In this document: positions 18,355 through 63,145 of the stretch, piece by piece | Numbering within the stretch: position 1 is the stretch's first letter | Layout of the letters: every line of letters starts with the position of its first letter | Source: Cordylochernes scorpioides | Lineage: Eukaryota > Arthropoda > Arachnida > Pseudoscorpiones > Chernetidae | Direction of reading: 5' to 3' | DNA length: 64,000 nt | NCBI GenBank assembly: GCA_030710605.1 | Contig: CP092880.1 | Coordinates: 8,445,909-8,509,908 of the forward strand | The notes under the pieces: model-generated | The model's database searches: none | What the model was told of the DNA's origin: nothing | The model's input: the letters and a program-made list of their open reading frames with translations, nothing else | Made by a program: the position numbers and the translations under genes

Positions 18355-18812
18355 TTTTTTTATCCCTCGTACATGTGATACAGGCCATGATAATAATTTT
18401 TTTTTGCTTATCCCTAATACACGTGGTACAGGCCATTAAATTCATGGTGGATAGAAGAAGAAGACTGCTTTTACTGTAAGTGCACCACATGTCTCCACAT
18501 GTGAAAAGCAGTTTGACTTTGCACTTACAAATGTGCTATGATAATCATGGTAGGTAGAAGTAGGCAACTGCTTTTACTGTAAGTGCACCACATGTCTACA
18601 CGTGTGAAAAGCATTTCGACTTTGCACTAATAAATTTGTCAGAGCTCCGTTTGGTTACTTGTACTTGTTGGTGTGGTTGAACTTTTACAAGAAACGTTGG
18701 TCATTGGAGCATTTTTTTTTAATAGAAAAAAGTGCCCAATGCTGGATTCGATCCCGGGTCGTAGCGGTCGAAAACCAACGGTTTAGAACATCCTTCCACT
18801 GACCTCCCATAA
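18355..18812 (-). mobile_element. tRNA-derived SINE-1, copy 2, internally rearranged
   Basis: The minus strand shows the tRNA-like head with the B-box region at about 18740-18760, the SINE-1 body and the tail. The body is partly repeated: the 'gtacaggccat' tail word occurs at about 18380 and 18428, and 'ctgcttttactgtaagtgca' at about 18470 and 18570, so the tail half was duplicated or hit by a second SINE. Confidence 0.8.
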
Positions 18813-25544: not shown

Positions 25545-25756
25545 TCTGACGTTTGCTGGCTATGTGATGCGCGGATCAACAGGAGAGACATTGCCGACAG
25601 TGTTGGAAGAAAAGCTCCAAGGGAAGAGATAGAAGGAAAGGAGACGACAGGGATACACAGACGATCTAAAACAATGGACTAGACGACACACCTACGAGGA
25701 GATGAAGAGTATGGCGGAGGAAGTATGGAAAAACCATGTGGCCCACCCTCAGTAGA
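25545..25756 (+). mobile_element. LINE ORF C-terminal end, copy A
   Basis: The frame ending in TAG at 25754-25756 reads R-R-Q-G-Y-T-D-D-L-K-Q-W, then M-A-E-E-V-W, then H-V-A-H-P-Q-stop. This resembles the C-terminus of RTE-type LINE polyproteins ('RRW.DDI...A.DR..WR'). The 55-bp array that follows is built from the last codons and stop of this ORF. A second such end lies at 63100-63145 on the minus strand. Confidence 0.7.
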
Positions 25757-26712
25757 GGAAAACATTGAAGGAGGGAGATATGGAGAGACCATGTGGCCCA
25801 CCCTCAGTAGAGAGGGGCACTGAAGGAGGGAGATATGGAGAGACCATGTGACCCAACCTCAGTAGAGGAAGGCACTGAAGGAGGGAGATATGGAGAGACC
25901 ATGTGGCCCACCCTCAGTAGAGGAAGGCATTGAAAGAGGGAGATATGTAGAGACCATGTGGCCCACCCTCAGTAGAGGAAGGCATTGAAGGAGAGAGATA
26001 TGGAGAGACCATGTAGCCCACCCTCAGTAGAGGAAGGCATTGAAGGAGGGAGATATGGAGAGACCATGTGGCCCACCCTCAGTAGAGGAAGGTACTGAAG
26101 GAGGGAGATACGGAGAGACCATGTGACCCACCCTCAGTAGAGGAAGGCATTGAAGGAGGAAGTTATGGATAGACTATGTGGCCCACCCTCAGTAGAGGAA
26201 GGCATTGAAGGAGGAAGTATGGAGAGACCATGTAGCCCACCCTCAGTAGAGGAAGGCATTGAAGGAGGGAGATATGGAGAGACCATGTGGCCCACCCTCA
26301 GTAGAGGAAGGCATTGAAGGAGGGAGATATGGAGAGACCATGTGGCCCACTCTCAGTAGAGGAAGACATTGAAGGAGGGAGATATGGAGAGACCATGTGG
26401 CCCACCCTCAGTAGAGGAAGGCATTGAAGGAGGGAGATATGGAGAGACCATGTGGTCCACCCTCAGTAGAGGAAGGCATTGAAGGAGGGAGATATGGAGA
26501 GACCATGTGGTCCACCCTCAGTAGAGGAAGACATTGAAGGAGGGAGATATGGAGAGACCATGTGGCCCACCCTCAGTAGAGTAAGGCATTGAAGGAGGGA
26601 GATATGGAGAGACCATGCGGTCCACCCTCAGTAGAGTAAGGCATTGAAAGAGGGAGATATGGAGAGACCATGTGGTCCACCCTCAGTAGAGGAAGACATT
26701 GAAGGAGGAGGA
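25720..26712 (+). repeat. 55-bp tandem array, about 18 copies
   Basis: The unit contains AGATATGGAGAGACCATGTG, CCCACCCTCAGTAGAGGAAG and GCATTGAAGGAGGG. The first unit coincides with the ORF end of the LINE fragment (tatggaaaaaccatgtggcc...cagtag), so the satellite is a reiteration of a LINE 3' terminus. An inverted counterpart is at 62755-63140. Confidence 0.93.
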
Positions 26713-28825: not shown

Positions 28826-29079
28826 ATGGAGAGTGTCAAGCGAGGACGTGTGCGACCTATCCGGGACCTGGCGACGGAGATAAGTTCCAGCCATCCGTGG
28901 AGCAGCCGGTGGAACCTGGCGTACAAGCTGCTGGTGTTGCTGGGCTGCGGAGCAGGGTTTGTGTACCAGATATGGGCCTTCGCCTCGCTCTACCTGGCCC
29001 GGCCTAGCGTGGTAGACTGGAGGGTGGCCCACCCGGAGTTTGTGGAACTGCCGGCCATCACCATCTGTGATATCAACCC
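28826..29079 (+). CDS. DEG/ENaC exon 1: N-terminus, TM1 and PAITIC motif
   Basis: Encodes 84 codons plus two bases (phase 2). Residues 1-30 are a basic cytosolic N-terminus with a serine-rich stretch before a Trp, where family members usually carry the gating HG motif region. Residues about 31-58 form TM1 (LAYKLLVLLGCGAGFVYQIW onward). Residues 74-84 read ELPAITICDIN, matching the family's 'FPAVTICN.NP' just outside TM1. ATG at 28826 is the first in-frame ATG; the frame is open upstream to a GTG at 28811 only without ATG support. The donor CC|GTGAGT lies inside the first unit of a 21-bp tandem array. Promoter and any 5' non-coding exon were not identified. Confidence 0.93.
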
Positions 29080-29395
29080 GTGAGTCTGTCACATCAACCC
29101 GTGAGTCTGTCACATCAACCCGTGAGTCTGTCACTTCAACCCGTGAGTTTGGCTTGTGGCATCAACCCGTGAGTCTGTAACATCAACCCATGAGTCTGGC
29201 TTGTGGCATCAACCCGTGAGTTTGGCTTGTGGCATCAACCCGTGAATCTGGCTTGTGGCATCAACCCGTGAATCTGGCTTGTGGCATCAACCCGTGAGTC
29301 TGTCACATCAACCCGTAAGTCTGGCTTGTCACATCAACCCGTGAGTCTGGCTTGTGGCATCAACCCGTTAGTCTGGCTTGTCACATCAACTTGCG
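29080..29395 (+). repeat. 21/30-bp tandem array containing the exon 1 splice donor
   Basis: About 12 degenerate copies of ATCAACCCGTGAGTCTG followed by 'tcac' or 'gcttgtggc' or 'gcttgtcac'. The founding unit is the exon 1 / intron 1 boundary (ATCAACCC|GTGAGT), so most units carry a canonical-looking 5' splice site. Using a downstream donor would place CCG TGA in frame, hence a premature stop. Intron 1 then continues as ordinary sequence to 29586. Confidence 0.93.
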
Positions 29396-29586
29396 TTAGT
29401 GTCCTTCTTGGATTTCTAACACATCAGTCTAAATAGGACATCAAACTGTTACAAACGTTATCCTTTGGCATTGATTTATGGATGATCGAGCCTCAACATG
29501 AGTTATTTGGTGTGTGAGTGTCCCTCAGTGACACCGTTCAGTACACCTCCGTGTAGAAACATATAAAGTGGGCTGTTGTGGCCCAG

Positions 29587-29710
29587 GTTTCGGAGGTATG
29601 ACTTCTGTCTGGACAATCCAACCAAGTGCCGTATGACAGAACGAGGCAAGCAATTCTGTGAAGAAGAGCCGGAACTCTGCAAGAACGAAACCTTCATGCT
29701 TTATTACAAG
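29587..29710 (+). CDS. DEG/ENaC exon 2: start of the extracellular domain
   Basis: The acceptor CCCAG|G supplies the third base of the Pro codon begun in exon 1, giving the family sequence 'NPFRR'. 41 codons follow (FRRYDFCLDNPTKC...FMLYYK) with four cysteines, then donor AAG|GTGAGC in phase 0. This is the palm/wrist region just after TM1. Minus-strand ORFs across it are shadows. Confidence 0.93.
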
Positions 29711-29876
29711 GTGAGCTGGCTTCTTTATATTCATTTAGGATTAATGCTTTAACATACTAATGCTGATTCTTTTCCATTGAAGATTCTGGAATTAAAATGA
29801 GAAGAATAAACTATGGTAGTAAAGAATTATCTTTCATCCAGTTTATACAGTCATTTAGGAGTTTGTTGGAAAACAT

Positions 29877-30960
29877 TCTGTTACGACGCTTTCTAGCCGT
29901 CGATGTTTGTGCGCAAGGTTTATAAGAAAACAATGTGGGTTAGTTTTGGATACAGCTTAGTACTATAAATTTATTCCCAGAGCTTTAAAAGGGATATTAA
30001 TAACTATACATAGTAGATGAACTTGCCTTCAATGTCCGCCCCGGGTAGGTTCCTCCTTCTCCTTTTTTGCACCGTCCTCCACTTATTGATCTACACGGTC
30101 CCACTCCTTGGGACACTTCCTTGTAGCCAAATTGCCACGTCTACTGTCACCGCAGATCTGTTTTTAACTGTCCTGCTCCCCCCACATTGGAATGCCGTCG
30201 TGACGTCTGTCCTCCCCACACACGTGGGCCATCCTCCCGTAGCTGGTGGAATCCATCCATCTTTTTACAACTTCACCCTGGGATCCCTGCCTCTCGGATA
30301 TCTTGTCATACAGTGAGAAGGGAATTATATATATTACAATACACTTATCCCCCGATTTACACGGTAGATACGTTCCTGAGAAAAACATGTAAATCGAGGG
30401 ATAGGTGTATATTAAATTGTCAAATCTGAATAGGTGTTCGCCCCCTCATGAATCAGAGCCTCCCAATATTCTTTTCAACATAGGTAGTATAGAGTAGAAT
30501 ATCGCATTTTAGTATAGTGCGATAAAAAAAAACTTATTTGGAAAACCGTGTAAAAGCGAAAACGTGTAAAACAAGTACCGTGTAAATCGGGGGATAGGTG
30601 TATTGTTACGACGCTTTCCAGCGGTCGTCGTTTGTGAACAAAGTTTCTAGATAAACATTATAGGTTCGTTGTGGATACAGCTTAGTTCGTTATACTTTAT
30701 TACCAGTAATTGTTAATGGAATTGAGAACTAGGTACATTAGATGGACTTGTCTCCAATCAGAAGGATCCTCCATCAGAAGGATCTTCCTTGTCAACGGTC
30801 GACTCCCTACCAGATCGGGCAAGTTTCTCTGACACCGTCTTGCAGGATCATCCACACGGACACACTCCCTAAGACAATTTGCCGCTTCTTATTTCACTGC
30901 CGATATCACATTCGGTGTCCACTTTCACAGTCACACTTCCCCTCATAGCCTGGAAGAGGA
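29877..30960. mobile_element. LTR-like direct repeats with a nested MITE, in intron 2
   Basis: 29880-30300 and 30604-30960 begin TGTTACGACGCTTTC and share 'gatacagcttagt', a 'tagatg.acttg' block and a 'tccacac..'-type distal part; divergence is high. Between them, 30343-30602 is a MITE with inverted ends (see separate entry). Small ORFs here, such as 30017-30316, look like chance frames in a pyrimidine-rich LTR. Confidence 0.5.
30343..30602. mobile_element. MITE with long terminal inverted repeats
   Basis: Ends ACACTTATCCCCCGATTTAC and GTAAATCGGGGGATAGGTGT, followed inward by matching 'acggta' / 'taccgt'. The interior includes a family P fragment (about 30440-30515). Located in intron 2. Confidence 0.8.
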
Positions 30961-31146
30961 CACTTTTACGGCGGGGAAGACTCTCCGGCTGAAAATTTAA
31001 ATTTGTAAATATTAAATTCTTTTTTAAATTACTATATAATAGGCAAAATAGCCTAGCTGCGAAAGCTTTAAACTTTAGAATCTGATGTCCCTGGTTTGAA
31101 AACACTTTTCGCTATCTTTTTATTTTCTCTAATTATTTACACATTA

Positions 31147-31356
31147 TATACACTCATGGACAAAACTTAAGGAAGTTGTACCTTATAGCATGTATATCGA
31201 GATTCAGACAATAATTCTGAAAGATATTATAGTAACCTTTATTGAAGACACACGAGATAACCAAGTGTGTGAACAAAATTGCCTCTGTCTCCTTTAAAAA
31301 AAGACGACGGTGACATCCAAGACTTTGGTCCTTTAGTTTCGTCCATGAGTGTAAAT
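31147..31356. mobile_element. MITE-A, copy in intron 2
   Basis: Inverted ends ACACTCATGGACAAAACTTA and a 3' end reading TTAGTTTCGTCCATGAGTGT, flanked by TA. Interior typical of the family (acgagataaccaagtgtg). Confidence 0.87.
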
Positions 31357-31394
31357 ACTAAGAACATATATGCTAAGATTATTTAATAAGACCA

Positions 31395-31605
31395 ACATGT
31401 AAACCAGGGCTAGGTTTTTTTACTATTTTTATTTCTCAAACTTTCGGGTTAATATGCCCTTCAACAGGAGAACTATAAGTATGACTTCCAGCTAACTATA
31501 CACGTCGAAAATAAATCGCACTTTTAGTTCTACTGTTAAAGGGCATGTTATCCCGAAAGCTAAAGAGATAAAATAACAGAAGAAACTTAGAGCACTGGAT
31601 TGTTG
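31395..31605. repeat. Family C palindrome, in intron 2
   Basis: Arms around 'ctttcgggttaatatgccct' and 'agggcatgttatcccgaaag' form an inverted repeat related to single-arm copies at 21100 and 22283. A further arm starts near 63905. Confidence 0.6.
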
Positions 31606-31828
31606 ATCTTCTTATTCTTTTTGTTGGATCGGTGGTTCAATCAAATTGAGAATAGATTGAAATATATATAGGTTTTAATATAGCGCACGAGGTTATGCAA
31701 GCAGGCAGTACAAGGGAAGACATAACAGGAAGTGAAGGAAGGAGGGTACAGCGCCTCTAGTGGTGATGGCTGGAAGCTCCTCGAATGCCACGTCATCCCG
31801 TGACGTAGGTGCGCTGGATTTGAAGTAG

Positions 31829-32175
31829 CACGCAGTTCAGCACTTTTTCTTTCTTATTTCTACTCAATCATATTTGGGGTATCAAGCTTGTGAAGTAGAA
31901 TGTGTCTGCCTTTGTCATTAAGACAGGGAGCACTACTCAGTGGCAGGCCGACTTAACTCCAAAAGAAATGGCCGCCTCTGACATGAGGAACAGACGCCAT
32001 GTACAGCCGCTCCTAACAAGAAATACAAACGCTGCTCATCCTGTATCCCTGGATCAGGAGCCCTTACAGGGTACTATCAGCCGGGCCAGCTGAGTCCAGG
32101 TTTTTTAGCGAGCTTGTTACTGCTCCCCCTCCTCTTTTTTCATCCGAGCTTGGGACCGGAAAAGGCGGAGTTTGT
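31829..32175 (-). repeat. Dispersed repeat R, inverted copy, in intron 2
   Basis: Reverse complement of 7080-7435, ending 'cttgggaccggaaaaggcgga'. ORF 31902-32093 is a frame of this repeat. Confidence 0.75.
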
Positions 32176-32509
32176 TGATCTTATTAAATTGTAAAGTCAG
32201 GGATGAATATGTATGCTAAGAATATGATGAACGAAAGGAGTATATTCCCTGAATATCATACAAAATGTGTCTTTTCATTGAAATTCTTTTTCGAAATGGC
32301 ATCCAAGCAAAAATCTGGGAACGGTTGAGCCTTATACCTAGCATGTTCTTTAGGAATTTTTGCCTTATGGCTTTACGAACAACTTCTCAACTAGAATATC
32401 GAGGAAGCTCATGTAGAATTTCTATTCGACAGCAGCGGGTCATACCTGCTACCGTCGCCTAAGCTGTCTGTGTACCGTGTTGCTGAGGAAAAATAAAAAT
32501 CTCCTCACA

Positions 32510-32845
32510 CTCAGCATTCCCCAGAGCACTGGGCCGAAATCACATTGCGTCAACACGGGCCTACTGCCATCGCAAAGTGGTCATCGCCAGCCAACACCTA
32601 GACCTTCTCACACTGTGGGAAAGAACTCTCGCAGTCCACCGGTGGTGGAGTCTTTCCCGCGGTTGGCGACACCAATAAAGAACTTATATATATATGTATA
32701 TTTGTCAATTATTATATGTATTTACATTTATTTATTCATATATATTTATCATTACATGATCTTATTTACTCATATTTATGTATTTAACCTTATATAACCT
32801 TATATGAGCGATGCAATATAGAAGTTTCAATCTCAGCATTCCCCA
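32510..32845 (+). mobile_element. Retroposon insertion with 14-bp duplication at the exon 3 acceptor
   Basis: The 308-bp insert 32524-32831 is flanked by identical CTCAGCATTCCCCA at 32510-32523 and 32832-32845. Its distal part (tatataaccttatatgag ... agtttcaat) matches 26890-26980. The duplicated target includes the exon 3 acceptor (CTCAG|CATTCCCCA), so the insertion left one 3' splice site on each side. The downstream copy is the one continuous with the exon. Confidence 0.75.
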
Positions 32846-33033
32846 ATCCAACAGAAGTTCGGATATTGTCACCAATTGTCCTCTGTGTCGACGATACAGA
32901 TCCTGAACTTCGACTATGTCGAGGATGTCTTGTGCTATTCCAACCTGAGCAAGCTGGACCAATATGGCGTCTTCCCTCGGCATATCTTCAAGGAATGTTA
33001 CGCTTCCTGGGCTCCGGATATCAACTTCTGTAG
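32837..33033 (+). CDS. DEG/ENaC exon 3: extracellular domain
   Basis: 65 codons plus two bases. The acceptor TTTCAATCTCAG|CAT is phase 0, matching exon 2; the donor TGTAG|GTAAGT is phase 2. The peptide HSPIQQKFGYC...WAPDINFC contains four cysteines, and its 'YSNLSKLDQYG...CYASW' segment fits the variable finger/knuckle region. No stop in frame. The minus-strand ORF over it (32762-33055) is a shadow: the + strand frame joins neighbouring exons in phase and carries family context. Confidence 0.87.
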
Positions 33034-33479
33034 GTAAGTTCCTTCCACTTCTCAAACTATTTTTATTTATTAATCAATCAGACGTGATATTGATATATTT
33101 GCGCCTAATACAGAGGGAACAAAACAACAAACAAATTAGAACTTAGAATTAAATATTTACAAATTTGCATGTATTATTCTACAGTCGATATTTTTGTAAG
33201 CCCGTTGAAGAGCGAATAACGCTTGAAAGCTAGCATTTTTAAATAAAAAAGATACTCATTGTGAGAATATAATTGTAATTATAATTATTCTACAGTGTTT
33301 ATAAAATGTATATAGACAAAGTGGCTGAGGTGAAAGAGTTAGATCATTTAAATCAGGGAACAATCGATGTCTCACTTCTGTAAAGTTCGGAAAGTCGTAG
33401 ATGACTTCTCAAACTAAGGGAAATTGTGATAAATCAACAACCCGCCATCTATATATGGCAAATAAAAACACCAAGACGC

Positions 33480-33600
33480 TGATGTCTTCTACTGTCCTTA
33501 CTGCGATGAAAAAATATATTGGGAGGATTCATCACTGATGAACCAAGCCCTCCCAATATTCTTTTCATCGCAGTAAGTAGAGTAGAAGTTTGATTTATGT
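33480..33600. repeat. Family P hairpin in intron 3
   Basis: Palindrome with arms 'cttctactgtccttactgcg' and 'cgcagtaagtagagtagaag' and a short centre. Non-coding. Confidence 0.7.
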
Positions 33601-33689
33601 GTGAAGGAGACATTCACGTCTTGATGTCTTCATTTGCTACAATGGAAATTGTATCACAGATGATAAATATAAAAAGAACATCTGATTGT

Positions 33690-34262
33690 GCAACTGAAAG
33701 TTGCTGATGGCTTACACCAACTATCGGAATAAATATCTAATAATTGTTGGTTTTTAAATTCCAGAATAGTATCGAAATTACCATTATTGATGAATCAAGA
33801 AAAATCAACTTTATGTTCGTATTTCAAGTTTTTGGCATTTATCAACCTGGTACAGACTGTATCTCAACGACCAAAAAAGGCCCTATCAAGGATCGGGTAT
33901 ATGCACTCATGGACAAAACTTAAGGAAGCAGTAAATTTTTGATATCGTCGGTTGTCTATTTTATTTTTGAAGGAGACAGAGACAATTTTGTTTATACTTG
34001 GTTATCTCGTGTGTCTTCAATAAAGGTCACTGTAATATCTTTCAGAGTTATTATCTGAATCCCGATATACATGCTAAAAGGCACAACATACTTAATCCAT
34101 GAGGGTAAAATCAACGAGAGCCAACAGCCTGTGAAAGACATACGTGGTTGGCTTTTATTGATTTATAAAGATGGTAAATTTCGCCAATATATATTCTAGA
34201 ATAAAAAATCAAACTACGATAGATGGCAAAAACCAGCATAATCGATCGAGAGATTTTTCTTA
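33690..34262. repeat. LIR-1-type inverted repeat split by MITE-A
   Basis: Left arm 33690-33897 (gcaactgaaagttgctgatgg ... gtatctcaacgaccaaaa) and right arm 34109-34262 (gagccaacagcctgtgaaag ... gatagatggc) correspond to 13455-13868 but are diverged. The MITE-A at 33898-34108 lies in the centre. Confidence 0.75.
33898..34108. mobile_element. MITE-A nested in LIR-1
   Basis: Starts GCACTCATGGACAAAACTTA and ends at 'catacttaatccatgagggt', a worn right end. It splits the centre of the long inverted repeat, so it is younger than that element. Confidence 0.75.
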
Positions 34263-34439
34263 ACTTCTCACCAAATTATTGGAATGAAGTACAATACATA
34301 TTGTATAATCAAAACAGGACGTGAGTAAAAGCACTTAGTACTAGTCCAAACTAGTGATCTGGACTTCCCGAGTTGTTGGCGTTCTGTACTCCAGGAACTT
34401 GGGTTAGAAATATCTCTCTTGTTGGAATACAGTAAACCA

Positions 34440-34675
34440 TCACCTTAATAAGAATGAAAATGCGCCAATGGACCCCGATTCTTGCAAAAATCCAACGCCA
34501 CCAGCGAGTGCAAGTAACCAAACGGAGCTTGGGCACATTTGTAAGTACAAAGTCGAACTGCTTTTCACACGTGTAGACATGTGGTGCACTTACAGTAAAA
34601 GCAGTCGTCTACTTCTACCCACCATGATTATCATGGCCTGTACCACGTGTACTAGGGATAAGAAAAAAAAAATTA
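34440..34675 (+). mobile_element. tRNA-derived SINE-1, copy 3, head missing
   Basis: Begins in the body (aaaatgcgccaatggacccc) and runs to 'gtgtactagggataagaaaa'. The tRNA-like head is absent, so the copy is 5'-truncated. ORFs at 34351-34536 and 34468-34707 are SINE frames. Confidence 0.82.
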
Positions 34676-35221
34676 GTAAGATACCCTTAGGAATATACAT
34701 GGTTTAAAGATGGTATTTCCTAGTAAGTTAGAGTGTACTGCTCTCCACACAAAGTTGCTCTGGAGAGTTACCAAGTGTCAATTGATGTTAACTGGAGCTG
34801 AATGCTCCGTTAAATTGGTCGCTTGGCTGATATTAGCTTCTGGTTGTGTGAAATCTGTCTGGAAATGTGAGAAAAAAACATGCGCCCCTTAAGATTTCAA
34901 AAGAACATTCCCAGTATTTGTTAAAAACGCTGAACAAATTTCTAAAGTTAATTTACATATGCTTTCTTAAGTTATTAAAAATATTTTCTCTGAACATTTA
35001 TACCTATGCCATTTATTTATAAATAAGGATATCTCTCTTTGAAAAAAAAAAAAAAAAACGCAAAAGAGCTATGCGTCATTGATTATTTTGACAGGAGACG
35101 GAATTTAATTTCTTTTTGCAGATTAATATCCTCCCGGTTAAATTCCCACATTTATATACACTTTAGCAAAATGATAGAATTCAATAGTTGATGTCTCTAC
35201 CATCACAGAATTCTGTCCATA

Positions 35222-35640
35222 ATACACTCATAGACAAAACTTAAGGAAGTTGTACCTTTCAGCATGTATATCGGGAATCAGACAATAACTCTGAGAGATA
35301 TTTGAAACACAGTGACCTTTATTGAAGACACACGAGATAACCAAGTGTGAACAATATTGACTCTGTCTTCTTCACAAAAGGAAGACGACATCAAAATATG
35401 AAACTGTTGTATATATATTAATTAATTGTTACCACAGAGTGTGTGTAAGTTCACAGGTAAATAGTGCTAACCGAAAAAAAAGTTCCTTTGTTTAATATTA
35501 GTTTTCCTTTTATATTTTGTTCTCTCTCTTGTAAATCAATAAATATAATGTTTGATTAATAATTATTGGAATCAGTTTCATTAAATATTCTAAGCAATGT
35601 CAACAGAAACTTCCTTAAATTTTGTCCAAGAGTGTGTACA
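35222..35640. mobile_element. MITE-A interrupted copy in intron 3
   Basis: The left end ACACTCATAGACAAAACTTA and interior run to about 35396. The right end 'cttccttaaattttgtccaagagtgt' is at 35607-35636. About 210 bp of AT-rich sequence separates them, so a second insertion or expansion lies inside. Confidence 0.65.
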
Positions 35641-36146
35641 TTATTCTTAGTGGGATTATTTGAATAAATACGCCAACAGAATATAAACAATTAATTAATA
35701 TGATTTGAAAGTTTTATAAACATTGAATTTTAATTTTATTGAAATAAATGATGAAAATGTTAATCTAGATAACACCTCGTGTATTACAAAATGTTGAAAT
35801 AGGATTCTAGATAATTCTTGCCTAAAAAGTCAGTCTAAATGCTGATAGTAGAACAGTTTGGTAGAGCCAATCTTGTACGCCACCCAGACAGGCCACGATA
35901 GACTGGACAAAGTTATCTGGAGTTATTTGCCAAGGTTGGTACATGATATTTACACTCGAAAAAAAAACCTTTGCATTCGTCGACCGCTGATAGCTTCTGG
36001 CTTTCTTAACACCTCCTTCGTTTATAGAGGCAGACAGTATCGAGGGCAGACCTATGGTTGTTACATACTGGAACATGGACAGTGGAAGATGGAATGTTCT
36101 ATATACGGGGTTTGGGTATCTAACCAAGTATATGGCTGTGAAGTAG

Positions 36147-36304
36147 ACAATGTATCTACTCGCCAATGCTGTGTGATGGCAGTGAGGAATACCTGGAGAG
36201 AGTCTACACTTTTGGGATGTTCGAGATCTGCCGCAACTGTTACGTCATCAACAGCCGGGTGCGCAAGCCCCCTACTCCCATCTCTTACATCCCTTTGTCC
36301 TCTC
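36147..36304 (+). CDS. DEG/ENaC exon 4: extracellular cysteine-rich segment
   Basis: One base completes an Arg codon from exon 3; 52 codons then read QCIYSPMLCDGSEEYLERVY, followed by TFGMFEICRNC...PISYIPLSS, and one base is left over (phase 1). Four cysteines. The acceptor is placed at GAAGTAG|A because it keeps phase with exon 3; three bases upstream is an alternative that adds one residue. Donor CTCTC|GTACGT. An ORF on the minus strand and the + strand 36166-36720 frame extend beyond the exon only because the adjacent array is stop-free. Confidence 0.85.
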
Positions 36305-36545
36305 GTACGTATTGTAAATTTGTGGTTTGTACCTACTGTCAACTTGTAGCTTTATCTATTGTCATCTGGTTCTCTCGTACGTATTGTCATCTTGTGATTT
36401 TTATGTACTCTCAACTTGTGGTTTTTATGTACTTTCAACTTGTGGTTTTTATGTACTTTCAACTTGTGGTTTTTATGTACTTTCAACTTGTGGTTTTATC
36501 TACGGTCATCTGGTCCTCTCGTACGTACTTTCAACTTGTGTTGTT
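36296..36545 (+). repeat. 24-bp array (72-bp higher order) containing the exon 4 donor
   Basis: Units such as TTTTATGTACTTTCAACTTG alternate with copies of the junction CCTCTCGTACGTATTG. Junction-like donors (CTCTC|GTACGT) occur at 36305, 36377 and 36521, spaced 72 and 144 bp, all in the same frame. The whole array is open in the exon 4 frame, so use of a later donor would add 24 or 72 codons without a stop. Confidence 0.9.
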
Positions 36546-36592
36546 TAAAATATCATTGCCACTAAAGCGTCAACTATTTCTTAAATTAGAAA

Positions 36593-36940
36593 CTCCGCCT
36601 TTATACCGGTCCCAATCCCGGGTGAAAAAGGAGGGGAGCAGTAAAAAGCTCAGTAAGAAAACCTGGACTCAGCTGGCCTGGCTGATAGTACCCTGTAAGG
36701 GATCCAGAGATACAGAATGAGTCTGTACTCCATGTTAGGAGCGACTGAACATGGCGTCTGTTCCTCATGTCAGAGGCGGCCATTTCATATTAGAGCTAAG
36801 TCGGCCTGCTACTGAGTAGAGCTCCCAGTCTTAATGACAAAGGCAGACGTATTCTACTTCACCCAGACACCATCAAAAGTCTCAAGCTCTACAAGATTGA
36901 TAGCCTGAAATGATTGAGTGAAGATAAGAAAGAATAAGAA
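36593..36940 (+). repeat. Dispersed repeat R, copy in intron 4
   Basis: From 'aactccgcctttataccggt' to 'gaaatgattgagtgaagata', matching 7080-7435. Confidence 0.78.
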
Positions 36941-37076
36941 ATAACTTTTCATGCTACTATTTTTCATATGTGTTGTTTTACAATAAATATATGGTAACAT
37001 ATTATAATCTATACAATCCCACAAAATAAACGATGAATCGGTTTAATAGAAGCTAAAAAGATGCTATCATCCTTAG

Positions 37077-37381
37077 GTTTCTCTCCCTCAATTACACGCC
37101 TGGTAGAATTAACGCGCACTTCTTATCAGGTAAGGGATATCGAAAATATACTCTATATGAGGTGTAGAAATTGTGAAACCTTCCTGAGTCCGTGTGGGGC
37201 AGAGGACCAAGGCAACTATTTGCGGATCGTGCTGGACCTGGACCCCAAGCAGAACTTCTTTCCCGTGATAAAGAGCCAGGCCACCGCCTTGGTCCACTCC
37301 CCGGCCTCCCTCGTTGATCCTTTCCTCACCACGGGGATCCAGATCACACCTGGACTGGCGCAAGACATCCTTCTCACTATG
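37077..37381 (+). CDS. DEG/ENaC exon 5: finger and beta-ball/palm region
   Basis: 101 codons after two bases that complete Arg with exon 4. It starts FSPSITRLVELTRTSYQV and continues IENILYMRCRNCETFLSPCG, then GNYLRIVLDLDPKQNFFPV, then a stretch ending in the turn GIQITPGLAQDILLTM. The 'LxLxLDxxQNxFxP...G...TPG....I' pattern is the conserved core of the DEG/ENaC extracellular domain. Acceptor CATCCTTAG|GT, donor CTATG|GTACAT in phase 0. The usual 'GxCYTFN' is reduced to C-E-T-F here. The donor is the first of about 24 near-identical ones in a 72-bp array. Confidence 0.9.
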
Positions 37382-39062
37382 GTACATACCTACCCTTGGT
37401 CACCAGGCTTCACATCCATGTGGTAGGCCCAAACCAACATCCTTTTCACTATGGTACATACCTACCCTGGGTCACCAGGCTTCACATCCATGTGGTAGGC
37501 CCAAACCAACATCCTTCTCACTAGGGTACTTACCTACCCTGGGTCAGCTGGCTTCACATCCATGTGGTAGGCCCAAACCAACATCCGTCTCACTATGGTA
37601 CATACCTACCTTGGGTCACCAGGCTTCACATCCACGTGGTAGGCCCAAACCAACATCCTTCTCACTAGGGTACTTACCTACCCTGGGTCAGCTGGCTTCA
37701 CATCCATGTGGTAGGCCCAAACCAACATCCGTCTCACTATGGTACATACCTACCCTTGGTCACCAGGCTTCACATCCATGTGGTAGGCCCAAACCAACAT
37801 CCTTCTCACTAGGGTACTTACCTACCCTGGGTCAGCTGGCTTCACATCCATGTGGTAGGCCCAAACCAACATCCGTCTCACTATGGTACATACCTACCCT
37901 GGGTCATCAGGCTTCACATCCATGTGGTAGGCCCAAACCAACATCCGTCTCACTATGGTACATACCTACCCTGGGTCACCAGGCTTCACATCCATGTGGT
38001 AGGCCCAAACCAACATCCTTCTCACTAGGGTACTTACCTACCCTGGGTCAGCTGGCTTCACATCCATGTGGTAGGCCCAAACCAACATCCTTTTCACTAT
38101 GGTACATACCTACCCTGTGTCACCAGGCTTCACATCCATGTGGTAGGCCCAAACCAACATCCTTTTCACTATGGTACATACCTACCCTTGGTCACCAGGC
38201 TTCACATCCATGTGGTAGGCCCAAACCAACATCCTTTTCACTATGGTACATACCTACCCTGTGTCACCAGGCTTCACATCCATGTGGTAGGCCCAAACCA
38301 ACATCCGTCTCACTATGGTACATACCTACCCTGGGTCACCAGGCTTCACATCCATGTGGTAGGCCCAAACCAACATCCTTCTCACTAGGGTACTTACCTA
38401 CCCTGGGTCAGCTGGCTTCACATCCATGTGGTAGGCCCAAACCAACATCCTTTTCACTATGGTACATACCTACCCTGTGTCACCAGGCTTCACATCCATG
38501 TGGTAGGCCCAAACCAACATCCTTTTCACTATGGTACATACCTACCCTGTGTCACCAGGCTTCACATCCATGTGGTAGGCCCAAACCAACATCCTTTTCA
38601 CTATGGTACATACCTACCCTGTGTCACCAGGCTTCACATCTATGTGGTAGGCCCAAACCAACATCCTTTTCACTATGGTACATACCTACCCTTGGTCACC
38701 AGGCTTCACATCCATGTGGTAGGCCCAAACCAACATCCTTTTCACTATGGTACTTACCTACCCTGTGTCACCAGGCTTCACATCCATGTGGTAGGCCCAA
38801 ACCAACATCCGTCTCACTATGGTACATACCTACCCTGTGTCACCAGGCTTCACATCCATGTGGTATGCCCAAACCAACATCCATCTCACTATGGTACATA
38901 CCTACCCTGGGTCACCAGGCTTCACATCTATGTGGTAGGCCCAAACCAACATCCTTTTCACTATGGTACTTACCTACCCTGGGTCAGCTGGCTTCACATC
39001 TATGTGGTAGGCCCAAACCAACATCCTTTTCACTATGGTACTTACCTACCCTTGGTCAGACT
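37366..39062 (+). repeat. 72-bp tandem array, about 23 copies, carrying the exon 5 donor
   Basis: Each unit includes ACATCC(T/G)T(T/C)TCACTATGG and TACATACCTACC, that is, the last ~15 bases of exon 5 and the donor, plus GGCTTCACATCCATGTGG and AGGCCCAAACC. Some units have CACTAGG or CAGCTGGCTT variants, which fall in blocks and suggest higher-order duplication. 72 bp is 24 codons and no unit has a stop in the exon 5 frame, so the frame stays open for over 580 codons. It is intronic if the first donor is used. Confidence 0.95.
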
Positions 39063-39074
39063 GTGGAGAGCTAG

Positions 39075-40325
39075 GTTCACATCCATGTGGTAGAACTAAC
39101 TTAACATCTGTAGGTTAATTATAACAGAATTAGTAAATCAAACAATATAATTATTAGATATTTCGGTAATCAGATTTTTTTAAATCACAATAAATATATA
39201 GTTACTAAATATGCAGGCGATTAGCACTATATTTCTCTATAGTAAAAATATTGACGGTAGAATATTTGAAATTAAATACGTGACCTAACATAAGGGCTTA
39301 ACCTATCTAATGACCATCCAACAGACCTCCTGCACATTGACTTCTAAAGGAATAATGTAAAAGATAGTAATGACTATAATTTTATATCGTATTCTTCATT
39401 ATTATTTATGGCTTTAAAAATGAATCCCGCATTAGCTAAATTTGTATCAATAAGATGATTTGAAACTACAGAATGATCCACCTACATTACTCTACCAGAC
39501 GTGATGGCTAAATAGTTCACAGAATTATTTGACATCGATATCAGACGACATTTCAGCGCCATGTTCAGCCATATATATATATCTCCACAATCTACAGAAC
39601 GGTGTCTATAATCGATATAAACGAAACACAGATCCATTCAAACTTCCTCTTTATAGACCAGAGATTAATATGATAATCAACCAAAGATATCTTGACTAAG
39701 AATCAATAAACAATCGCATCACTTCAAGGTAAAATTTCTTTATAGCATAAAGACGTACAAAGTTTTGTCTTTGGTCTTTCTTCTATAAGTACGCTACCTA
39801 TATCTAAAAACCTGGAGAAGAACTACCAAATTCTTAAGCCTGTATGTATGTTACGATTATTTTTGTGTTTTGTTGTTGAAAAGAGGTGCAGTCGTGAAAA
39901 TGTAAAGATAATTATTTACCTTTCAAGTAGATTTTATTTTGAATCACTTGAAGTAAAATTACACATAAAATTATTTATCACAGCAATATAGAATTTATAG
40001 AATGAATTCTATAATCGTGATTTTAATTAAAAAAAGGTAGGGTTAACTATACATATTTACAACAATAATAATTAAAGTGGTATGTTCTGAATCTATGGTC
40101 AAAAATATATAACAGTCAATGAATGAAAATGAAATATAAAAAGAAACTCTTTACCTTGAAGATTAGTGAAAATGTTCTGTAGAAGGTAATGGCAAGTCTA
40201 CCTACTAGAAAGTCACAGATTACTTTCATTTGAAGAGTAAAGTTGAGCTTTGATGAGCCATAACGATCAGAATGGTACAAGCAGAGACAGAACACAAACA
40301 CAAAGCAATAACGCGCCATCTATAC
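39075..40325. other. Intron 5 unique sequence
   Basis: AT-rich intron without recognisable repeats or genes. The small ORF at 40116-40319 has no support. Confidence 0.55.
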
Positions 40326-40716
40326 ATATAAAATGAAAGGATTTAAAAGCACGAATATTTCTTTAATACATAATACAAACTTCTACTGCCCTTACTGCGA
40401 TGAAAAATATAATAGGAGGGCTTAGCTCAATATTTGAATGTAATTCTACTGTCCTATAAGCTTATGTCCATAGTTTTCTTGAAAACCATTTCTGAGATTT
40501 TATCCTTCAGTGCTGCGTATATAAGCAGAATCGTTCAATACAGTATTAGAGCTCTGAGAAGACGTCTGGTGGATTAAATTGGCGAAACCGCTGGAAGGGT
40601 TCACCACAGATGAGCCAAGCTCTCCCATTATATTTTTCATCGCAGTAAGGACAGTAGAAGTTTGTATTATGTATAAAAAAACATTCGTGCTTTTAAATCC
40701 TTTCATTTTATATAGA
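40326..40716. repeat. Long inverted repeat of family P next to exon 6
   Basis: Left arm 'aaaggatttaaaagcacgaa' ... 'aacttctactgcccttactg' and right arm 'cagtaaggacagtagaagtt' ... 'ttcgtgcttttaaatccttt' are reverse complements over more than 100 bp. The right arm ends about 55 bp before the exon 6 acceptor. Confidence 0.88.
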
Positions 40717-40770
40717 ACACAAATAGAAGCCTATAAACAACACAATACCATGATATCATCGGCTGTCCAG

Positions 40771-40869
40771 TCCGAGGTCAGCCTGCTCCCTGCTCCCTTC
40801 TCCACCAACTGCACGGACTATGAGGCCAAGTGGAGACAGACGGGAAGGTTTGCGGATCGTAGTCAGAAG
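40771..40869 (+). CDS. DEG/ENaC exon 6: LLPAPF...NCTDY segment
   Basis: 33 codons, phase 0 at both ends: SEVSLLPAPFSTNCTDYEAK and then WRQTGRFADRSQK. The 'EVSLLPxPxSTNCTDY' string is a hallmark of ENaC-type extracellular domains. Acceptor GGCTGTCCAG|TCC, donor CAGAAG|GTAGGT. An upstream ATG-initiated reading (from 40579) is in frame, but the phase-0 join to exon 5 gives the conserved TPG...EVSLLPAP spacing. Confidence 0.93.
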
Positions 40870-41469
40870 GTAGGTGCACATTGTGACAACTCACACTAAT
40901 TTCATATCATTAAAGAATCCATACTAGCTGAACCACCCGACATTGTACGGGCAACCGAATTAAAATCTGACCCTTTACACTCAGTCTGTAAATATGTCAT
41001 ATCCACTGAAAATATAATCATTAGAAATCAGTGTCTACGCAATATAAATGCAGTAGTCTTTTCGGCCGTAGTTTTCAACCCTAAAGGCTTTTCTTCAGAG
41101 GCCTAAATACTGTTTTATTGTAATAGGGACAGGAAGATATTCCTTTTGGCTTGAAAAATCGCCCAGTTGTGTCGGAATAACGAAACAAGAAAAGCTAAAA
41201 GTTAAGGATAACGTCATTTTGCAGGTTAGTTTTATAAATTGAGTCGTAAATATTTGCTCATCAATCTTTTAACTACTTTGCTTTCAACGTTTCAACAATC
41301 TTCTGTCGTCATTTTCAAAGAATTATTTGTGAACAGCAGTCAAATAGTTCATTCAAAAGGACGAAAGAAGGTCGTCGAAACGTTGGAAATAAAAAAATGA
41401 TTACCAAGATCATATCATTATCAGACCATTATCATCATTATATTCTTTGACGAGTATAATATTTGTTTT

Positions 41470-41945
41470 TGACTCGTCCTTTAGATGTTGTACTAAATTT
41501 GAAAAAAAAATCGCGTGAAAGCGCTCTTGCAACCCCAGAATAATTTTTTACGCCTTGCCAAATGCTTTATTTTTATTTAATTCTCCTGACGAAGACAAAA
41601 GATTTTGTTGAAACGTTGAAAAATAAAACTTTAACAGGCCGAAGTGTCTAAATTTCAATGAAAAAAAGTATCAAAGAAAGGTTGATATAAATAATTTACA
41701 CTTCAGTTATAAGTTTAGTTCTCTTGTTCTAATTCCAACTTTATTGTTTTCGAAGTAAGAGACAGTCGAATTTTTAATTTTTTCGACGTTTCTATGTCAG
41801 GAAAAAATTATAGAACCTTATAGAGAGGCGTTAAAAATATGTTTTTGTTTTCCTGACAGATTTTTGTCGAAACATCGAAACACTAAAGGAAGAAGTGTCT
41901 CTTTCTTCTTCATGAACAAAGAATGCCGGCCAGGCAACCTTTGTC
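41470..41945. mobile_element. Family D palindromic MITE fragments in intron 6
   Basis: Two partial copies with 'cgtttcgac/gttgaaacgttgaaa', 'cctgacgaagacaaaa' and 'gccgaagtgtct' words, related to 18975-19192. Further related words lie at 41280-41400. Non-coding. Confidence 0.55.
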
Positions 41946-41955
41946 TTCAATATAC

Positions 41956-42131
41956 AGTAGAACCTCCATGAGAGGCAATCGCGTTAGAGGATACCTCTCT
42001 ACAAAGGATAGTTTTCATTAGCAAAATTACCATTTTTACTATTTAGCAACTCTTCGGTAAGAGGGCACCTCTGCCTAAAGGACACTTTGGCTCTGCAATT
42101 CAGTGTCCTTTACAGCGAGGTTCTACTGTAT
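41956..42131. mobile_element. pogo/Tigger-like MITE in intron 6
   Basis: Ends CAGTAGAACCT and AGGTTCTACTG, flanked by TA, about 176 bp. Interior phrases 'agaggatacctctctac' and 'cggtaagagggcacctct' are typical of pogo-related MITEs. Confidence 0.8.
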
Positions 42132-42329
42132 CCTACTTTTTTATTTAAAATAAAATTCAGCATGAAGGGTTACGCACTCTATTTGTGCAGTTTGAAGGGA
42201 AAATTGTATTCAAGAGTGAAAAGGGACTTCATTAAAGAATCCATTAAAAATAATTCCTTGATCGACCAGCTCAAGAAATCAGGTTCAGACTATTAATTAG
42301 GCACCATATTCCAATAAGGCTCAAACCTA

Positions 42330-42510
42330 CACTGAAGATAGAAAATAACAAAATCTACCCTCACTTGCCCAAAATGTAGCTTGGCACCTGAAGCTCCAGA
42401 ACACATGTTGGCTTGCATTATATGTACTAAACAGTACCTTTGGGAGAGGTCGCTGCTTATCATAAAACAGTTTGAGAAGTATGAACTCATGGAATTTGTG
42501 TAATCTTTAC
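42330..42510 (+). mobile_element. LINE ORF2 C-terminal zinc motif fragment
   Basis: The frame ending at 42502 reads C-P-K-C-S-L-A-P-E-A-P-E-H-M-L-A-C, then KYELMEFV and stop. This 'CPxCxxxxxxxxHxxxC' tail is common at the end of arthropod LINE polyproteins. A 134-bp part, 42377-42510, is duplicated at 42839-42974. Confidence 0.68.
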
Positions 42511-42744
42511 AAAAGGGGATAAGAAATAACAACAGGCCCAAACCTACAGGTTATTATTTTTTTTCGGATTTCCAAAGCTGGCGTTGTAATACTTATATAT
42601 CAGAATCTGCACGTTTTATAAGATCGTTCAAATATATTGTCGCGTGTTTTCTCTTGGTCCTTTATGTGACAACGCCGCTTCCGCCGCGGATCATCAGCCG
42701 TAACGCTGTTGCCTTCCCTCTGCAGCTCTTGGATCCCACACAAA

Positions 42745-43160
42745 CTCCGCCTTTGCCGGTCCCAAGCCCGGATGAAAAAGAGGAGGGGAAGAAGTAACAA
42801 GTTCGCTAAAAAACTGGGCTCAGCTGGCCCGGCTGTTAGTAGCTTGGCACCTGCAGCTCCAGAATACATTATGGCTTGCATTAGATGTACTAAACAGGAC
42901 CTTTGGGAGAGGCTGATGCTTATCATAAAACAGTTTGAGAAGTATGAACTCATGGAATTTGTGTAATCTTTACACTTAAGGGCTCCTAATCCAGGGATAC
43001 AGGATGAGTCTGTACTCCATGTTAGGAGCAGCTGTACATGGTGCCTGTTCCTCATGTCAGAGGCGACCATTTCCTATTAGAGCTAAGTCGGCCTGCTACT
43101 GAGTAATGCTCCCAGTCTTAATGACAAAGACAGATGCATTCTACTTCACCAGGAGTTAAG
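42745..43160 (+). repeat. Dispersed repeat R interrupted by a LINE fragment, in intron 6
   Basis: 42745-42838 and 42978-43160 are the two halves of repeat R. Between them, 42839-42977 is a second copy of the LINE C-terminal fragment from 42377-42510. The insert joins at 'gttagta|gcttggcacc' and 'tttacactt|aagggctcc'. Confidence 0.75.
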
Positions 43161-43716
43161 AAATAAGAAGACACAAACTCGTTCTTTTATTTCTAGTTTT
43201 CAAAACAAAAACCGCTCGAACGCCGGCGTTGCGTGACTCGTGACTTCGATCCAAGAGAATCGACTAAAGTTTTGAAGCGTGCCATCTATTAACGGAGGTT
43301 GAAACTGTTTCCTTCTCTAGGCCAATACCCGTAACAATATTTTCAAATGGTTTATTATGCGAGAGGTGACGATTTACATAAGTTATCTACAGAGCTAAAC
43401 TTCCAGATATTTTTTTCCCTTGTAACAATTCCCAGTTCTCAAATTTTAGAGTTTAATTTATATTGATAATTTTGGTAAAAATCATTTATTTCTGGTTGTG
43501 AGTTTGTTTTAAAAGACTCTATAGCTACTACACAAACCGTTCTTGAGTTGTTTGTTTCCAGACAGTGAGTCACTGTATTCACCTTCCCCATCCCCCTGAT
43601 GGAGGAAACCGTGAGTCACCGAAACGCCGAGAAATAAATACAATCATGGACGAAACTTAGGGCAGTTGTACCTTTTAGCATGTAATATCGGGATTGTCCG
43701 CTAGAACGTAAAGGTT

Positions 43717-43752
43717 GGGGGGGTGGGGGGGGGGGGGGGGGGGGGGGGGGGG
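43717..43752. repeat. Poly-G tract
   Basis: G7-T-G28 on the + strand, directly abutting the first unit of the 122-bp array. It could form G-quadruplexes on the + strand. The run length is also where sequencing is least reliable. Confidence 0.9.
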
Positions 43753-44887
43753 TTTGGGATGTGCTGGCCTGTGTGGATGATTGTATCACCAATACCCCAT
43801 CATAGACATAGAGTCGCTGATAAGACCAACACTGAAGAAGGAATAATGTGACAATCACCCCACATCGACATGATGTTGGGATGTACAGTCCTGTGTGGAT
43901 GATAGTATCATCAATACCCCATGATAGACATAGAGTCGCTGATAAGACCAAAACTGAAGAAGGAATAATGTGACAATCACCCCACATCGACATGATGTTG
44001 GGATGTGCAGTCCGGTGTGGATGATTATATCATCAATACCCCATGATAGACATAGAGTCGCTGATAAGACCAACACTGAAGAAGGAATAATGTGACAATC
44101 ACCCCACATCGACATGATGTTGGGATGTACAGTCCTGTGTGGATGATTGTATCATCAATACCCCATGATAGACATAGAGTCGCTGATAAGACCAAAACTG
44201 AAGAAGGAATAATGTGACAATCACCCCACATCGACATGATGTTGGGATGTGCAGTCCTGTGTGGATGATTGTTCATCAATACCCCATCATAGAGTCGCTG
44301 ATAAGACCAAAACTGAAGAAAGAATAATGTGACAATCACCCCACATCGACATGATGTTGGGATGTGCAGTTCTGTGTGGATGATTGTATCATCAATACCC
44401 CATGATAGACTTAGAGTAGCTGATAAGACCAACACTGAAGAAGGAATAATGTGACAATCACCCCACATCGACATGATGTTGGGATGTGCAGTCCTGTGTG
44501 GATGATTGTATCATTAATACCCCATGATAGACATAGAGTCGCTGATAAAACCAACACTGAAGAAGGAATAATGTGGCAATATCTACACATCGACATGATG
44601 TTGGGATGTGCAATCCTGTGTGGATGATTGTATCATTAATACCCCATGATAGACATAGAGTCGCTGATAAGACCAAACCCGAAGAAGGAATAATGTGACA
44701 ATCACCCCACATCGACATGATGTTGGGATGTGCAGTCCTGTGTGGATGATTGTATCATCAATACCCCATGATAGACATAGAGTCGCTGATAAGACCAACA
44801 CTGAAGAAGGAATAATGTGACAATCACCATACATCGACATGATGTTGGGATGTGCAGTCCTGTGTGGACGATTGTATCATCAACACT
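43753..44887 (+). repeat. 122-bp tandem array containing the exon 7 acceptor and exon start
   Basis: About ten units starting GATGTTGGGATGTGCAG. Each contains the 3' splice site TGTGCAG|TCC and about 30 bases matching the start of exon 7 (TCCTGTGTGGATGATTGTAT then CATCAATAC), followed by intron-like 'cccatgatagacatagagtc'. Starts are near 43872, 43994, 44116, 44238, 44354, 44476, 44598, 44720 and 44842; the last runs into the real exon. An exon begun at an upstream copy would meet CCA TGA in frame. Minus-strand ORFs across it are repeat translations. Confidence 0.95.
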
Positions 44888-44972
44888 ATCCTATGGCGCT
44901 GCGGATGTTTCCCACCCAGCATCCCCAGCTTCAGGGATGAAGTTGGGGACCTCAACCTCTGCAGACGAACCT
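44858..44972 (+). CDS. DEG/ENaC exon 7: CxxxC...CGC signature
   Basis: 38 codons plus one base. Reads SCVDDCIINTILWRCGCFPP then SIPSFRDEVGDLNLCRRT. Joined to exon 6 this gives SQKSCVDDC...CGC, the family's 'YSQxxCxxxC......CGC..P..P' motif. Acceptor TGTGCAG|TCC in phase 0, donor CCT|GTGAGT in phase 1. The first 30 bases of the exon are what the upstream array repeats. Confidence 0.92.
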
Positions 44973-45434: not shown

Positions 45435-46495
45435 TGATACTCAAAACACATACTGCTCACACAATACACACACAACATACAACACACAGCACGCTCACTG
45501 CACACAACATTCTCAATCCACACAACATACAACAAACAATGCACGCACAACATGATCAATGCACACAACACACACAACACGCTCAATATCTACAACATAC
45601 AACACGATCAATGTCTACAACATACAACACACAATTCACGCACAAAACGCTCAATGCACACAAAATACAACATAAAACCCGCTCAATTCACACAACATAT
45701 AACACAAAATGCACGCACAACATGCATACAAAACATATAAAACACAACATGCTTAATGCACACAACACACAGCATGCTCAATGTAAACAACACACACAAC
45801 ATACTCAATGTAAACAACACACACAACATGCTCAATGTAAACAACACACACAACATTCTCAATGTAAACAACACACACAACATTCTCAATGTAAACAACA
45901 CACAACATGCTCAATGTAAACAACACACACGGCATGATCAATGTAAACAACACACAACATGCTCAATGTAAACAACACACACAACATGCTCAATGTAAAC
46001 AACACATACAACATGCTCAATGTAAACAACACACGCAACATGCTCAATGTAAACAACACACGCAACATGCTCAATGTAAACAACACACGCAACATGCTCA
46101 ATGTAAACAACACACGCAACATGCTCAATGTAAACAACACACGCAACATGCTCAATGTAAACAACACACACGGCATGCTCAATGTAAACCACACACACGG
46201 CATGTTCAATATAAACAATACACACAACATGCTCAATGTAAACAACACACACAACATACTCAATGTAAACAACACACACAACATGCTCAATGTAAACAAC
46301 ACACACGGCATGCTCAATGTAAACAACACACACAACATGCTCAATGTAAACAACCCACACAACATGCTCAATGTAAACAACACACACAACATAGACAATG
46401 TAAACAACACACACAACATGCTCAATGTAAACAACACACACAACATGCTCAATGTAAACAACACACACAACATAGACAACACGCTAAATGTACAC
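45435..46495 (+). repeat. 27-bp CA-rich array in intron 7
   Basis: The right half (45780-46470) is a regular 27-bp satellite, CAATGTAAACAACACACACA then ACATGCT, about 25 copies. The left part is an irregular version with many 'acaacata' words. All frames on both strands stay open for long distances, giving artificial ORFs of up to 218 codons. Confidence 0.93.
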
Positions 46496-46601: not shown

Positions 46602-46681
46602 TGTGCTCCAGTGGATCCCAACGCCTGCGTGAACAAGGTCGACCTCATCCCATGTTACCGCATGTGCAATACCAACTGCAA
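46602..46681 (+). CDS. DEG/ENaC exon 8: CxxC cysteine cluster (5' border unresolved)
   Basis: Clear coding from the Cys at 46602: CAPVDPNACVNKVDLIPCYR then MCNTNCK, with six cysteines, then donor CAA|GTGAGT in phase 2. It matches the 'C....C......C...C' cluster that follows CGC in the family. The best acceptor by sequence, TTACCTCCCAG|CTC (exon start 46596), is phase 0, but exon 7 ends in phase 1. Phase-compatible AGs exist at 46545 and 46551 and would add 16-18 residues. A small missed exon is another explanation. Confidence 0.78.
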
Positions 46682-47382: not shown

Positions 47383-47458
47383 GATGAGACAACAATGTGG
47401 CAGGTATTACATCTACGGCACGGAGATCTACAGTTCTACCATCGCTAATCCACCGCCG
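47383..47458 (+). CDS. DEG/ENaC exon 9: post-cysteine 'Y...S...P' segment
   Basis: The acceptor CAAACAG|G gives the last base of a Lys codon with exon 8; 25 codons follow, MRQQCGRYYIYGTEIYSSTI then ANPPP, ending at donor CCG|GTAAGT in phase 0. It corresponds to the 'C...Y....S.S..P' strand before TM2. This acceptor is the only nearby one that keeps phase, although its pyrimidine tract is weak. Confidence 0.8.
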
Positions 47459-47584: not shown

Positions 47585-47738
47585 AGAGGGTAGATCGAAA
47601 TTTGAAAATTATACAGAAAATGTTTCTTTTGAATGAAAAATCGGAGATTAAGGAGAAATAACGAATATTTCTAACCTTAGAGATGAAGTATGAAAGGATG
47701 AATTGTGAAAAGTAATGATAAACGGAAAAATAAAAGTG
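47585..47738 (-). mobile_element. Body of a tRNA-derived SINE (SINE-3)
   Basis: Continues on the minus strand from the tRNA-like head at 47739-47810: 'cacttttatttttccgttta', 'caattcatcctttcatactt', 'ggttagaaatattcgttatt'. The same body makes the arms of the palindrome at 49784-50058. Confidence 0.7.
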
Positions 47739-47810
47739 TCCAGGGATGAGAATCGAACCCACAGTGTTCCGCTTACCGGGCAGATGCCATGTCCACTAGG
47801 CTACCCTGGA
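47739..47810 (-). tRNA. tRNA-like cloverleaf (tRNA-Thr GGT-like), probably a SINE head
   Basis: The 72-nt minus-strand sequence folds as a complete cloverleaf: acceptor TCCAGGG/CCCTGGA, D stem GCC/GGC, anticodon stem TCTGC/GCGGA with loop CCGGTAA, and T arm with loop TTCGATT and B-box GGTTCGATTCT. The anticodon would be GGT (Thr). Odd features: C instead of U at position 33, GGT not being the usual eukaryotic Thr anticodon, and no encoded CCA. It is followed by TTTTATTTTT and by SINE body sequence. I take it as a SINE-3 head rather than a working tRNA gene. Confidence 0.6.
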
Positions 47811-48069
47811 CATATTTTTCCGTTCGTTTCACACAGGTTTGCGGATATATCGACAAGTTATGAAACAAAGGTACGTTTTAGACGTTTTAGTTTTTTTTGA
47901 AAAAGAGCTAGCTCGAAAGCTTCTTTAATAAAATAAATAATAAGATTTGCGGTGTCTTATACCTTTTTTGTAATTTTGTAGTTGGTATTTATTTCGACAG
48001 ATGGCGTAAGTCATCAGGAACTTTTAGTTGCACGAACATGGAGATGTCTTGATGATTCGTATATGTAAT

Positions 48070-62744: not shown

Positions 62745-63145
62745 TTTTCCTTCCTTCAATGCCTTCCTATACTGAGGGTGGGCAACATGATCTCTCCATA
62801 TCTCCCTCCTTCAATGCCTTCCTATACTGAGGGTGGGCAACATGATCTCTCCATATCTCCCTCCTTCAATACCTTCCTCTACTGAGGGTGGGCGACATGG
62901 TCTCTCCATATCTCCCTCCTTCAATGCTTTCCCCTACTGAGGGTGGGCCACATGGTCTCTCCATATCTCCCTCCTTCAGTGCCTTCCTCTACTGAGGGTA
63001 GGCCACATGGTCTCTCCATATCTCCCTCCTTCAATGCCTTCCTCTACTGAGGGTAGGCCACATGGTCTCTCCATATCTCCCTCCTTCAATGGCTTCCTCT
63101 ACTGAGGGTGGGCCACATGGTCTCTCCATACTTCCTCCGCCATCC
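62745..63145 (-). repeat. 55-bp tandem array with LINE ORF end, copy B
   Basis: About seven units of the reverse complement of the 25720-26712 satellite (CTTCAATGCCTTCCTCTACT, GGGCCACATGGTCTCTCC). At the right end, 63100-63150 on the minus strand reads K-R-M-A-E-E-V-W-R-D-H-V-A-H-P-Q-stop, the same LINE C-terminus as at 25700-25756. Confidence 0.9.

Follow-up and report, generated by a model that had tools for sequence, protein, structure and literature searches.

Tandem arrays at four exon borders of a DEG/ENaC-type channel gene in the pseudoscorpion Cordylochernes scorpioides

This analysis concerns tandem arrays at exon-intron borders of one sodium-channel-type gene, of the DEG/ENaC type, in a window of 64,000 nucleotides of the C. 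scorpioides genome, the window being the whole stretch of DNA that was analysed. Four arrays repeat a segment made of the end of an exon together with its splice site, and they are of the same kind as the arrays known as "mirages" in lancelets. The observation is real and unusual; what gives it value is that the host lineage is new and that a single gene shows the pattern four times. The arrays are probably mirage-type minisatellites that arose from local duplications of the borders, with the copy at the exon edge being spliced and the others tolerated, silent and with no function of their own. Mirages are in this way extended from lancelets to an arachnid, with four cases in a single gene, and whether repeats are born preferentially at splice borders or are only tolerated there can now be put to the test. 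The gene also offers natural material for studying the choice that the spliceosome makes among as many as 24 almost identical sites.

The channel gene and its border arrays

The gene starts at 28826 on the forward strand, which carries all of its exons, and exons 1 to 8, joined by reading and by frame, give a single open frame of 378 residues. Exon 1 (28826–29079), placed by its open frame and Pfam match, ends in TICDINP with the donor CCC/GTGAGT (the slash marking the junction), and exon 4 (36183–36308), which continues in frame to exon 5, has the donor TCGTAC/GTATTG. Exon 5 (37168–37381; donor ATG/GTACAT) and exon 7 (44858–44972; acceptor TGTGCAG/TCC) were placed by frame join, as were exons 2 (29587–29710), 3 (32900–33033), 6 (40771–40869) and 8 (46612–46681). 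A probable exon 9, near 47383–47458 on the same strand with its 3′ limit set to within one base, extends the frame without a stop. The channel frame matches Pfam ASC (PF00858) over residues 35–378 with E 1.4e-18, and the sole solved structure matching it at the 0.001 level is ASIC5 (HMMER, E 9.5e-4). A search of a large protein database gave no channel homologue at E ≤ 0.001, and tblastn within the window found no convincing nearby paralogue, matches outside the gene having E of at least 1.3. By eye, exon 1 contains a hydrophobic stretch that may be the first of two transmembrane segments; a single narrow pattern, run over the three forward frames as far as the end of the window, did not find the second segment or the last transmembrane exon. 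Neither the exon 9 stretch nor four other frames in the window had a Pfam match, so that among them no further protein gene was recognised that could act as an unbiased control, and an open frame of 600 residues running through the array at exon 5 had no homologue among 7993 candidates scored. Just past the probable exon 9, at 47736–47811 on the reverse strand, ARAGORN and Rfam place a tRNA-Thr-like sequence, which may be either a genuine tRNA or a SINE derived from one.

Tandem Repeats Finder (TRF) reports five strong arrays within the gene, four of which overlap an exon edge; these four were delimited by TRF and a unit scan, and all five are given here on the forward strand. Array 1 (29064–29390) has units of 21 and 26 bp and lies at the exon 1 donor, array 2 (36297–36547) has a 24-bp unit within a 72-bp unit at the exon 4 donor, array 3 (37365–39058) has 23.5 copies of 72 bp at the exon 5 donor, and array 4 (43754–44883) has 9.3 copies of 122 bp at the exon 7 acceptor. 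The exception is a 27-bp array in intron 7 (45742–46473, TRF), which contacts no exon. A near-pure G tract of 36 bp (43717–43752, forward strand) abuts the upstream edge of array 4. All four border arrays extend on the intron side, and they take in 16, 12, 17 and 26 bp of exons 1, 4, 5 and 7, respectively, so that the repeated copies comprise an exon end plus its splice site. Counting the authentic site, the donor junction of exon 1 occurs 13 times (GT kept in 12), that of exon 4 three times (at 36299, 36371 and 36515, GT in all three) and that of exon 5 24 times (GT in 24 of 24), and the exon 7 acceptor occurs 10 times, where AG is kept in eight and the authentic site is the last. Exact extra copies beyond the authentic one number seven at exon 1 and 15 at exon 5 (both as 9-mers), and one at exon 4 and four at exon 7 (both as 12-mers). 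Among the 15 splice junctions of exons 1 to 8, only these four have copies above background within 2.5 kb, with scores of 58, 39, 69 and 75 compared with at most 20 at the other 11 and a median of 20 at random points.

The original prediction, of arrays carrying junction copies at exons 1, 4, 5 and 7, holds for all four at the places where it had put them. Two details needed adjustment: the exon 1 array stands but its spacings are 21 and 26 bp instead of 21–30 bp, and the exon 4 array stands but the reading frame puts its donor four bases past the first GT, at 36308/36309. The view that the four units are unrelated and do not come from one spreading satellite was also borne out, each array being built from the gene's own border. 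The units are mutually unrelated in sequence and have no match elsewhere in the window, on which ground the spread of one satellite was rejected. Such uniqueness is not special to the border arrays, since the arrays beginning at 2010, 12240, 23896, 45742 and 58617 are likewise without a match elsewhere in the window.

Resemblance to lancelet mirages

Arrays of this kind had been thought undescribed, but passages of PMC3087553 and of a second lancelet paper already report, under the name of mirages, tandem copies of exon borders in the amphioxus Adh3, globin (BflGb6 and BflGb9), troponin C (TnC) and PGBD5 genes. In those passages mirages occur at 5′ and 3′ borders, many copies retain AG or GT, splicing is suggested to be undisturbed, and the mechanism is called unclear. 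The resemblance is close on several points. As far as the lancelet passages describe them, units there span an exon-intron border, as in all four arrays here with their 12–26 bp of exon, and many but not all copies keep the splice dinucleotide, as in 12/13, 3/3, 24/24 and 8/10 copies here. The unit lengths given in the same passages are 10–72 bp (Adh3), 60 and 108 bp (PGBD5) and 150–160 bp (globins), such that the 21/26, 24/72 and 72 bp units fall within the reported range and the 122-bp unit lies between reported values. In contrast to the lancelet cases as presented there, the host is an arachnid DEG/ENaC gene, four borders are affected in one gene, and there are up to 24 copies of a junction.

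No mirage outside lancelets was found among the open-licence literature matches listed. Passages on minisatellites of an earthworm metallothionein (PMC12783039) place them in intron 1 and not at borders, and a survey of tandem repeats in Daphnia (PMC3152781), in whose available text neither "splice" nor "exon-intron" occurs, adds no further case. Internal tandem repeats in human duplicated genes, as described in part of PMC2812944, are similar in that some are minisatellite expansions at an exon-intron boundary; they differ in that exons were changed or new introns proposed, whereas the coding frame is intact here. Intron gain by tandem genomic duplication likewise involves a duplicated segment that includes splice signals, but in the channel gene no new intron is seen and the far borders of the introns are unlike the arrays.

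Chance, splicing and origin of the arrays

Position at borders was compared with a null in which arrays were placed randomly and were permitted to intrude on an exon by at most 30, 60 or 100 bp. For the five strong arrays this gives 0.16, 0.32 and 0.51 expected exon overlaps, respectively, against four observed, and P values for at least four of five of 4.8e-6, 7.4e-5 and 4.9e-4; when the 11 merged TRF rows of the gene are all counted, the values are 2e-4, 2.6e-3 and 0.014. These P values overstate the case because the gene was selected by its pattern, after the fact. Nor is it unusual for a junction to lie in a repeat, as 25% of 400 points taken at random within the gene have a score of at least 34; four of 15 junctions is about the random-point rate, and only the position at the edge of an array is unusual. 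Some bias towards borders may nevertheless exist, since tolerance alone predicts roughly 0.2–0.5 edge overlaps per five arrays and four were seen.

The copy at the exon edge is presumably the one that is spliced. Under exon definition, the site that yields a short complete exon is preferred, and preference for the exon-edge copy would fit this because that copy gives the shortest complete exon. At exons 1, 5 and 7, use of another copy in place of the authentic site would run into a stop, and at exon 7 this holds for all nine upstream acceptor copies, two of which lack AG. This is not so at exon 4, where the array (36309–36547) is open in the gene frame; its donor copies lie 72 and 216 bp downstream, and their use would lengthen the protein by 24 or 72 residues with the frame kept.

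Arrays 3 and 4 differ in how the authentic unit compares with its copies. In array 3 the commonest base has a mean share of 0.949 in the donor columns of the 23 full units, compared with 0.973 in the remaining columns and 0.944 in the exonic part; donor columns being no better kept, nothing visibly preserves the copies, and selection for copies was rejected on these columns, that is, for array 3 only. The authentic first unit of array 3 is 95.3% identical to the others, and the 23 full units are mutually 94.6% identical on average; it is thus as close as any other and seems to take part in homogenisation, not being set apart as in array 4. There the authentic unit alone of the 10 has GAC and AAC, with C at bases 12 and 27 of the exon in place of the T of the other units, a pattern as expected of an edge unit outside homogenisation. 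An edge unit left out of homogenisation is also described for amphioxus in passages of PMC3087553.

A short local duplication across an exon-intron border, taking in 12–26 bp of exon, the splice site and some intron, probably began each array, and the duplicated border would then have expanded by ordinary slippage or unequal exchange. The gene would tolerate the intron-side copies, which would stay silent because the exon-edge site is preferred in splicing, and duplications extending deep into an exon would be removed by selection, leaving arrays that would have no function of their own. The open frame of 378 residues and the ASC match obtained by joining the exon-edge sites count in favour of this explanation by border duplication, as do the stops that copies at three of the exons would introduce, the absence of matches to the units elsewhere in the window, the edge unit of array 4 and the same structure in lancelets; the authentic unit of array 3, which is not set apart, counts against it. 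Alternatively, exon borders of this genome could be hotspots that actively promote tandem amplification, for instance through breaks linked to transcription, splicing or R-loops. We regard this as rather unlikely: borders do carry four of the gene's five strong arrays (the placement null giving P of 5e-6 to 5e-4), but this is a single gene chosen post hoc, P rises to as much as 0.014 when all 11 merged repeats are counted, and at 11 of the 15 junctions no copy exceeds background. Stretches prone to R-loops are expected to be G-rich on the coding strand, and the coding-strand GC skews of arrays 1 to 4 (−0.09, −0.01, −0.33 and +0.07) do not suggest R-loops. This is indirect evidence, on which the R-loop origin raised at the outset was rejected; the mechanism proposed in the original prediction goes beyond the data. 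On a wider scale, it is possible, albeit doubtful, that minisatellites of this arachnid genome arise preferentially at exon borders and that mirages are general in animal genomes with fast-turnover repeats, having arisen independently in lancelets and pseudoscorpions.

The arrays might instead be functional, whether by acting as decoys in splicing, by docking U1 or by varying the protein through the exon 4 donors. The open frame of the exon 4 array with its two downstream donor copies, and the 15 additional exact matches to the 9-mer at the exon 5 donor, would agree with this, but array 3 shows no special conservation of its splice columns and stops would follow from the copies at exons 1, 5 and 7, which makes such a role very unlikely. 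It is highly improbable that the arrays came first and exons later took splice sites from them, or that the arrays are traces of intron gain through tandem duplication of AGGT-type segments, a proposed route to new introns (PMC4974935, PMC3443670) that PMC3087553 also discusses. At exons 1 and 7 the exonic pieces fall in stretches aligned with ASIC5 (PAITICDINPF and a C...C..CGC stretch), so the exon probably came first and was the source of the array; the HMMER alignment is weak, with E of 9.5e-4 for the whole sequence and of 0.3 and 23 for the single stretches. Moreover, the far border of each array-bearing intron (80 bp at each of acceptors 2, 5 and 6 and at donor 6) is no more like arrays 1 to 4 than are its own shuffles: scores were 14, 13, 14 and 18, reached by 133, 157, 228 and 41 of 300 shuffles each, which argues against intron gain by tandem duplication. 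Least probable of all is that an assembly error created or inflated the arrays. Long arrays are hard to assemble, and one amphioxus draft mirage is said in part of PMC3087553 to appear aberrantly assembled, but the units here vary by point changes and form variants, and the exons adjoining the four arrays are all intact and read in frame.

Other repeats and elements in the window

A 55-bp satellite occupies 25716–26708 and recurs inverted 36 kb away at 62748–63138, with aligned pieces 84–94% identical. The unit of a 76-bp array at 9643–10100 matches dispersed stretches of the window, for example 31148–31226 at 91–95%, and this unit and its dispersed matches are perhaps ends of a mobile element; an array at 18442–18635 similarly has several dispersed relatives in the window. 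A mobile-element-like open frame on the reverse strand (55713–56759) has 1124 protein matches, of which the best 120 were considered. Seven of these 120 are from C. scorpioides itself (LAZ67_ entries) and are 74–91% identical over 57–77% of the frame, one being named a transposase; none of the other 113 exceeds 65% identity, and they include one from a moth at 54%.
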